This document shows, one piece after another, positions 1 through 1,731 of a stretch of DNA of 64,000 nucleotides. The notes under the pieces are model-generated. The model worked only from the letters and a program-made list of their open reading frames with translations, made no database searches and was not told where the DNA came from. Origin of the DNA: Geminicoccaceae bacterium (GTDB lineage: Bacteria > Pseudomonadota > Alphaproteobacteria > Geminicoccales > Geminicoccaceae). The stretch spans positions 124,001-188,000 of the forward strand of contig JANQPX010000018.1 in the NCBI GenBank assembly GCA_028285265.1, written 5' to 3'. Positions within the stretch are counted from its first letter, which is position 1; the number at the start of each line of letters is the position of its first letter. The translations under genes were made by a program, and so were the position numbers.

Positions 1-491
1 AGGTCAGCGGGAATCCAGATCGGTCTGGCACCTAGCAGATCCCAACCTTCGATCCATTTGAACGGATCGTCCTCCCTATAGCTGCTGCCTGGCGGTAGGT
101 CGAACCATTGTGGGCAGGCCACCGTCACACCAGATACCTGAAGGTTCCGGAAAGTGGTTTCCAAGCCATCTTCGGACACTTCTTCTGCGGAAACTCGCTC
201 GATCGCTTCCATCACGGCACTCGTGCGGGCGGCATCACGATCCAATCCCTTGCCGAGATGAGTCGTCAGGTCTTTTGCAAGTGGCGTAATAGCGCCAAAG
301 ACTGGTACACCCGCCGTGTCCAGCCTCGAAATCTCGGTGACGCGCGTGATTGGCACCCGTCGAAAAATCGACGCTGCCCGCTGGTACACTACATTCGCTG
401 CGCCCAGTCTTGCAGATGCTGGGCTTACCTTCTTGAAAATTTCGCCAGCCGTGAGCGGGCAGACGTCAAGCGCGCCGGCAGGCGCTATGTT
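1..491 (-). CDS. YcaO-domain protein, N-terminal part, cut by window edge
   Basis: Translating the minus strand by hand gives an open frame absent from the ORF track. It carries the signature of YcaO cyclodehydratase/thioamidation enzymes: TRVTEISRLDTAGVPVFGAI, then LGKGLDRDAARTSAVMEAIE, the ATP-binding N-terminal part of the fold. YcaO proteins activate backbone amides with ATP to make azol(in)es or thioamides in RiPPs, or act in ribosomal protein S12 modification. The frame is open from about 563 down to the edge but contains no ATG, GTG or TTG before a GTG at 389, which would cut into the family-like N-terminus. The end given is therefore only the point just after the neighbouring ORF. The true start could be non-standard, reached by frameshifting from the overlapping 72-residue ORF, or lost by mutation. 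The family call is firm; start and function are open. Confidence 0.8.
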
Positions 492-709
492 TAAAGGCCC
501 TGTACGATCATCCCAGTCGCGTGGTCTTTCAAGAAAAGGTGTGATTTCGTCTTCTTGGACAGGTCAATAAGATCCGCCAACTGTTGAGCGGTAAGATCGT
601 TTATGGCTTGTTTTACGTGATCACTAATGTGATCCGGATCTATTTCAGGAAGCGCACCACCCTTTTTCAGCGCATCGAAATTTGCCGCAAACTGGTTCTG
701 GCTAGCCAT
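491..709 (-). CDS. 72-residue small protein, possible RiPP precursor or YcaO partner
   Basis: The ORF starts with ATG after an AAGGA-like ribosome site and has a charged, helical look. The N-terminal half ends in a GGALPEIDPDHISDHVKQ stretch and the C-terminal tail contains KSHLFLKDHATGMIVQGL. Its 3' end overlaps the upstream part of the YcaO frame by about 70 bases. Small genes directly beside YcaO are often RiPP precursors, which is the inference here. However, the tail has no Cys and few Ser/Thr, so a heterocycle-rich core is not evident. No known leader family (Nif11, NHLP) is recognised. It could instead be a small accessory protein, or the separated N-terminus of the YcaO protein. Confidence 0.5.
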   Translation of the reverse strand: MASQNQFAANFDALKKGGALPEIDPDHISDHVKQAINDLTAQQLADLIDLSKKTKSHLFLKDHATGMIVQGL

Positions 710-1014
710 GTCAATTTTTTCCTTTTTTGCTCGGAACCTCTATACAAAGTACATTTCGGTCTAATTGACCTTTGCAAGGTACAACCACGACTATTTAATT
801 TGCATTTTAATAAAATCGCCGTCAACTCATTTCAGACTGGGCACAAGCTTCAACGGACGGTTGTCGTTCTCGACTTTGCCGTGCCTGATCAAGCGCTTTA
901 CTCACCCCTTCTTTGATAGCCGGAGGATGAGAGCTAGCTTGCGACCCTTGAAATCAATGATACCCAGATGTAATCGTCGGCCAATAATGCATCAACTAAG
1001 GGGGAGATCGTGCC
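710..1014. other. Divergent intergenic region of the YcaO locus
   Basis: This spacer lies between the minus-strand small ORF/YcaO pair and the plus-strand diiron protein. It is AT-richer than its surroundings, for example a T-tract just upstream of the small ORF and an ATTTAATTTGCATTTTAATAA-like stretch near 795. This fits a divergent promoter region. No palindrome or RNA motif was recognised, and the overlapping plus-strand ORFs in the track look like chance frames. Confidence 0.4.
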
Positions 1015-1731
1015 GTGGAGACGTTGAACACGAGCAGCGCCTTGATCCGGGCCAAGCTGCTGACCTATAGCGGCCCTCTGGCAGCAAGCTATGAGCAGCT
1101 TTGGAACAACGATCGCCTAGACGAGTTGATGCCGTCGTTCCTAGTGCTCATTCACCAGATCATGCGTGCATCGGTTCCTTTGATGGAGTGCGCCGTCAGA
1201 CGCTGCAACGAAGTCAATTCCAACGATCCGCTCTGTCCAGCACTGGCAGACTATTACGGCCACCACATCGAAGAAGAACGAGATCACGACGTCTGGGCGC
1301 TCGAAGACCTCGAAGCGGCAGGTTTTGATCCGAAGGTAGCTTTGGATGCGGTGCCATCACCAGCGGTCGCACAACTTGCCGGCAGGCAATACTATTGGAT
1401 TTTGCACCATCACCCGATCATGCTCTTGGGTTACATTATGGTCTTGGAGGCCTACCCGCCATCAAACACAACCATTGACAAGATCCGGGATTTGTCCGGC
1501 GTGTCGGACGCTGGGTTCAGAAATCTAAGAAAGCATGGAGAACTTGACGTTCACCATCGGGAAGAACTGGATCAATTCCTGGACTCCTTGCCTCTCGAAA
1601 AGAACCACATCGAAATGATCGGCATGAGCATGCTGCATTCGATAGAATCGCTGGTTGCTTGCCTGCAGACATTAAGACCAATCGATTGGCATCGTCCTGC
1701 CGATCGGGTGATGTCTTCATCGATCAGCTAG
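1015..1731 (+). CDS. Heme-oxygenase-like iron-containing redox protein
   Basis: The protein has 238 residues and starts at GTG, eight bases after a GGGGGAG ribosome site. It contains the motif HHIEEERDHDVWALEDLEAAG around residues 83-103 and KHGELDVHHREELD around 173-186. These match the ligand pattern of heme-oxygenase-like diiron oxidases (HDO; Haem_oxygenas_2/CADD/PqqC relatives): Glu and Glu-x-x-x-His in the early helices, then His-x3-Asp-x-His-His in the last. Such enzymes use O2 on amino acids, fatty acids or peptides. It is divergent from the YcaO gene, and HDO-like proteins are known from peptide-modifying clusters, so a role in the same pathway is a reasonable inference but is not shown. 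The actual substrate is unknown. Confidence 0.75.
   Translation: METLNTSSALIRAKLLTYSGPLAASYEQLWNNDRLDELMPSFLVLIHQIMRASVPLMECAVRRCNEVNSNDPLCPALADYYGHHIEEERDHDVWALEDLEAAGFDPKVALDAVPSPAVAQLAGRQYYWILHHHPIMLLGYIMVLEAYPPSNTTIDKIRDLSGVSDAGFRNLRKHGELDVHHREELDQFLDSLPLEKNHIEMIGMSMLHSIESLVACLQTLRPIDWHRPADRVMSSSIS

Follow-up and report, generated by a model that had tools for sequence, protein, structure and literature searches.

The initial annotation of this stretch of DNA described an open YcaO frame with no ATG, GTG or TTG ahead of its conserved N-terminal region, lying between the left edge of the stretch and a 72-codon open reading frame that could be the precursor of a ribosomally synthesized and modified peptide (RiPP). 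What the locus makes, and how its YcaO protein is translated, are the questions that we address here. The stretch, referred to below as the window, comprises 64,000 nucleotides (G000:C76:124001-188000) of an 8.5-Mb genome. When the contig was extended leftwards, a five-gene cassette of RiPP type was found to be cut by the edge of the window, and its remainder was read on the adjoining part of the contig (L003). The minus strand carries, in this order, the precursor, YcaO, TfuA and a cyclase/STAND/TPR protein, and the gene for a heme-oxygenase-like diiron oxidase (HDO) is divergent (Table 1). The locus is very probably a RiPP biosynthetic gene cluster that makes a small modified peptide. We further consider it probable that YcaO and TfuA thioamidate this peptide, that the HDO oxidizes its core, and that YcaO synthesis is coupled to that of the precursor through a start at an AUA codon.

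Table 1. Features of the cassette, in window positions unless a locus is named
Feature	Position	Strand	Remarks
Precursor, 72 aa	491..709	-	Leader-like N-terminal part; putative C-terminal core region with the end ...HLFLKDHATGMIVQGL
Precursor ribosome-binding site, AAGGA	710..731	-	Anti-SD duplex -5.6 kcal/mol
YcaO N-terminal part, thioamidation-type	1..488	-	Extends left beyond the window to G000:C76:123238
Candidate YcaO start ATA	486..488	-	2 nt past the precursor stop TAA
Conserved YcaO N-terminal segment CPLTAGEIFKKVSPASARLGAANV	390..461	-	Upstream of the sole canonical start
GTG, sole canonical in-frame YcaO start	387..389	-	Conserved segment would be lost; no clear SD
TfuA	L003:11947-13152	-	PF07812, 3.7e-37; next gene after YcaO
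Cyclase/NB-ARC/TPR protein, 881 aa	L003:9314-11959	-	After TfuA
HDO (heme-oxygenase-like diiron oxidase)	1015..1731	+	PF14518, 5.5e-10; divergent

The YcaO frame does leave the window at its left edge, on the minus strand. It is open for 441 codons from stop to stop, starting at window position 563, and the PF02624 domain (E = 4e-66) begins at residue 104. Its best curated model was TIGR03266, which describes the YcaO that thioamidates McrA (234 bits, under the cut-off of 365), and its closest solved structure was MJ1094 (3.3e-49), whereas the S12-associated model NF040716, with its cut-off of 700 bits, gave 19 bits, and an S12-type YcaO structure 1.6e-4. The score of TfuA for the curated thioamidation model was also under that model's cut-off. 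The archaeal system for thioamidation of a McrA glycine (TIGR03266, NF033432; MJ1094) thus supplies the nearest curated models for both enzymes, but both fall below the equivalog cut-offs and the window locus differs in having a dedicated small precursor. Judged by its sequence, the window YcaO resembles thioamidating YcaOs and not the S12 type. Adjacent ycaO and tfuA genes and a small precursor gene conserved beside them, two features that mark TfuA-associated thioamidated RiPP clusters, are both present. The outcome that had been named as contrary to a RiPP locus, a plain S12-type YcaO without biosynthetic neighbors, was not seen; the RiPP reading is supported by the TfuA neighbor, by the poor S12 score and by conservation of the cassette in other taxa. 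The earlier suggestion of a thioamide in place of an azoline likewise agrees with the presence of TfuA.

The HDO, precursor, YcaO and TfuA genes also occur together in a second genome of the same family (G031), in Aliishimia ponticola, in a genome obtained by searching the family of Aliishimia (G524), and on plasmids of Sinorhizobium fredii (YcaO match, 1e-124), of which four records carry the cassette at identities of at least 99%. An HDO ortholog was found in every YcaO-TfuA cassette. Behind TfuA, each of the five cassettes has the cyclase protein (the S. fredii protein was matched by phmmer, 5e-286); by Pfam scan, four of these proteins have an ATPase domain and those of G000 and G031 have TPR repeats. 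The protein is likely to be a regulator. Such cassettes are uncommon: in the Aliishimia family search, 2 of the 397 genomes had a YcaO at E ≤ 1e-60, although such genome sets are samples and not censuses. Neither YcaO nor TfuA was found within about 1.5 kb of twelve weaker alphaproteobacterial HDO matches (L111-L122), and a Rhizobium tropici ORF (L062:9964-10692) considered as an HDO was discarded, having no Pfam match. In G031, ORFs judged by eye to be S41-peptidase-like and then dipeptide-ABC-transporter-like follow the HDO gene (L027:13075-15114 onward).

The 72-codon ORF exists as annotated and is preceded by a clear Shine-Dalgarno sequence. In Aliishimia (E = 1.8e-11), G524 (1.4e-17), S. 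fredii (1.7e-9) and G031, YcaO is immediately preceded by a homolog of this ORF. The N-terminal part of the protein is the more conserved, and the C terminus is variable; in the wider family of such precursors it ends in xGIxI, TGVAF, IVQGL, ALGL or AGF. Comparison of these proteins supports the view that the ORF encodes a RiPP precursor, in which the N-terminal part would serve as the leader and the C-terminal 15-20 residues or so as the core. The core is too little conserved between branches to name a modified residue. YcaO and TfuA would exchange one or more backbone amide oxygens of the core for sulfur, giving a thioamide.

The divergent gene had been assigned to the HDO-type diiron proteins with the ligands of that family, and the assignment held up. 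The residues E88, H91, E145, H174, D178 and H181 were invariant in all 22 aligned HDOs (17 from cassettes and 5 more distant); we take them to be the metal ligands on the basis of the CADD/UndA motif, so that a site of three His and three carboxylates, as in the HDO superfamily, is read from the sequence. The AlphaFold model (pLDDT 86) has the all-helical heme-oxygenase-like fold predicted for a member of that superfamily, and the nearest solved folds in Foldseek were 3dde, CtCADD and UndA, with AetD also among the structural matches. The presumed six-residue metal site is the same in the oxidases UndA, CADD, AetD, MboA and VarO. The predicted substrate of the window HDO is a ribosomal precursor, for which VarO alone among these five offers a precedent in the literature surveyed. 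MboA desaturates a peptide side chain in a non-RiPP pathway (PMC13185094).

VarO belongs to the thiovarsolin cluster (varA-varY-varT-varO) of Streptomyces varsoviensis, in which the compounds depend on the YcaO-TfuA pair and the desaturation of the Arg adjoining the thioamide depends on VarO, the desaturated products being lost upon deletion of varO (PMC6511847). We found no other RiPP HDO in searches of an open-access library, and among the papers found there VarO is the sole HDO tied to RiPP biosynthesis by genetics. Thiovarsolin is the closest characterized system and provides the one characterized precedent for an HDO acting together with a thioamide. Like the window locus it combines a precursor, YcaO, TfuA and a heme-oxygenase-like protein, the last likened by family and fold and not by the sequence of VarO. 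By this analogy, the divergent HDO would act as an oxidase on a residue of the core, desaturation being the likeliest reaction. The two loci differ in other respects. The APR/GPR repeat core of thiovarsolin is absent from the window precursor in alignments, and the precursor sequences are not alike by eye; no amidinotransferase, ATP-grasp or MFS gene was seen beside the window locus, whose HDO gene is divergent and which has the cyclase/TPR protein instead. A thiovarsolin-like precursor with APR/APK repeats lies beside YcaO-TfuA in Nocardiopsis sp. TSRI0078 (L034:5373-5840), where no HDO was found within the stretch examined. Malit et al. (2021, PMC8120280) had already noted a heme-oxygenase-like gene in TfuA clusters of Sinorhizobium; these are probably the same as the S. 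fredii cassette found here, so that the architecture would already be catalogued. Their main text makes no mention of the start codon, of the pairing of the HDO with this precursor family, or of loci lacking YcaO-TfuA.

The open YcaO frame overlaps the 3' end of the precursor ORF, as had been described. The statement that no canonical start precedes the conserved region has to be qualified, given that translation from the in-frame GTG at 389 would keep the whole Pfam domain. The puzzle nevertheless stands, because the protein segment ahead of this GTG is itself conserved. The 24-residue segment CPLTAGEIFKKVSPASARLGAANV (CPLTxGE…) aligns without gaps with the Aliishimia and G524 proteins; its score was reached in none of 100,000 shuffles (p ≤ 1e-5 against both), and was 79 as compared with 13 for the best other register or frame within the strand's first 900 bases. 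From the precursor stop to this segment the YcaO frame contains no ATG, GTG or TTG, and the sole near-cognate codon is ATA 486-488. A GTG located four bases past the precursor stop in S. fredii is in exact register with this ATA (the protein score is 27, against 1 for the next register; 22 of 36 nucleotides are identical, shuffle p = 4e-5). S. fredii carries two further candidate GTGs, three in all, and its true YcaO start is therefore also one that we infer. The G031 TTG is not counted as further evidence for this register, which did not rank among the best-scoring ones there.

Among three explanations offered earlier, a rare start codon, a start lost by mutation and a -1 shift, the first is the best supported, since the S. 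fredii GTG is in exact register with the ATA. Across the five loci, the start codons assigned to YcaO are ATA, GTG, TTG, GTG and GTG, with ATG in none, and in Aliishimia the start overlaps the precursor stop (GTGA). The YcaO starts pair weakly with the anti-Shine-Dalgarno sequence (-1.1 to -3.3 kcal/mol in the four loci measured, S. fredii being left out), whereas the precursor start sites pair at -5.6 to -10.7 kcal/mol. The weak pairing, set against that of the precursors, and the GTGA overlap fit coupled translation, although random sites pair as weakly (median -2.4 kcal/mol). Comparison of these sequences makes translation of YcaO coupled to that of the precursor, from a weak start, the likeliest arrangement. 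In the window, ribosomes that end the precursor would reinitiate two bases downstream at the weak AUA codon, and such a start would hold the enzyme low relative to its substrate. AUA starts have been documented in Staphylococcus aureus (infC, ccpN and citZ), and those assayed with reporters gave some 10-30% of AUG activity; the documented starts have strong extended Shine-Dalgarno sequences (PMC13009471), which ATA 488 lacks.

The lack of a strong Shine-Dalgarno sequence at ATA 488 (-3.1 kcal/mol, as compared with -2.6 kcal/mol for GTG 389) also speaks for a rival reading of the same RiPP locus, in which a point mutation or sequencing error has turned a canonical codon at 486-488 into ATA, or YcaO now starts at GTG 389 without the N-terminal segment. 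We give these possibilities together somewhat less than an even chance. The S. fredii GTG in register with the ATA is compatible with a lost or misread start, the window species is known from one sequence, and a start at GTG 389 would leave the catalytic domain whole. However, the reading frames of YcaO, TfuA and the HDO are unbroken and conserved, and the relatives, none of which has ATG at this site, suggest that weak starts are usual here. A -1 frameshift at the precursor end, yielding a precursor-YcaO fusion, is very improbable. In G000 the YcaO frame is indeed the -1 frame and a heptamer, TTTAAAC, sits at the junction, but it is out of register with the precursor codons (CTT TAA) and no slippery site is common to Aliishimia and G524. 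Moreover, the relatives have GTG or TTG starts of their own around or after the precursor stop, and in G031 YcaO lies in the precursor's own frame, behind the precursor stop codon.

The HDO and the precursor extend beyond the cassettes that contain YcaO. When 399 genomes of the phylum were searched with an HDO profile, G1366, from the same class, and G1355 emerged. The genes at the G1366 locus run HDO, precursor, cyclase protein (L133:7865-11576), and neither YcaO nor TfuA was matched in 18 kb of sequence. At the G1355 locus, where the stop codon of the precursor and the start codon of the HDO overlap (TAATG), 19 kb likewise gave no match to either. Among 170 genomes of the gammaproteobacterial family of G1355, 16 contained a total of 18 HDO loci, and a related precursor of the same leader type lay directly upstream in 16 of these (14 genomes; E of 1e-11 or better with a profile that included G1355 itself). 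The sixteen loci are L139-L152, L155 and L156, several of them with a stop/start overlap. The YcaO and TfuA queries gave no match in the gammaproteobacterial loci of about 3.6 kb, nor did they when eight longer stretches (14-18 kb) were searched. The other two loci (L153:2222-2506 and L154:1018-1278), with more distant HDOs, have an unrelated small ORF upstream, that of L154 being a weak NHLP/Os17 match, which suggests that HDOs may also pair with other RiPP leader types. A papain-like peptidase lies within the short stretch in nine gammaproteobacterial loci, and a radical SAM group is present in several longer stretches (TIGR03975 in the three tested, L142, L152 and L155); L162 and L163 have neither near the HDO. 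G1466 and G1516 each have two HDO copies side by side. By ORF list and BLAST grouping, most of these gammaproteobacterial HDO loci (L157-L164, L134) also have beside them response-regulator-like ORFs and a protein of about 2000 residues that falls into a single BLAST group. Two Pseudoalteromonas plasmid HDOs (L136, L137) were set aside as another context, having no precursor match and, by eye, an adjoining AMP-ligase-like ORF.

Conservation of the small ORF as a whole, leader-like part included, together with the absence of a dedicated protease from the conserved alphaproteobacterial cassette, which has no dedicated exporter either, could mean that the product of the ORF is a stable small protein that partners or regulates the HDO, and that YcaO-TfuA modify another protein, as with McrA in archaea. 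We consider this unlikely, given that the C terminus varies behind a more conserved N-terminal part and that gammaproteobacterial loci carry genes for a papain-like peptidase and for a RiPP radical SAM C-methyltransferase. Model NF045560, for peptides of a sacti-type cluster (aroma-sacti cluster domain), also matched the G1366 homolog at 33.2 bits against a cut-off of 30; the G1355 precursor scored 19.9 bits, and the window precursor gave no match.

Because 16 of the 18 gammaproteobacterial loci and one alphaproteobacterial relative (G1366) have precursor and HDO without a YcaO or TfuA match, the HDO appears as the constant partner of the precursor, and YcaO-TfuA as an addition in the alphaproteobacterial branch. 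An HDO-defined RiPP class may exist, with the HDO and the shared leader family as its core, alone in minimal loci such as L162 and L163; other lineages would have gained YcaO-TfuA, a papain-like peptidase or a radical SAM C-methyltransferase in addition, the window YcaO being reinitiated at AUA. This wider proposal we regard as evenly balanced. Loci that pair an HDO with a precursor and have no other recognized modifying gene would allow HDO chemistry on ribosomal peptides to be tested with two genes, and those with YcaO-TfuA could reveal how thioamide formation and oxidation combine. A biosynthetic enzyme started at AUA right behind the stop codon of its substrate would, if borne out, be a simple natural control of the enzyme-to-substrate ratio.
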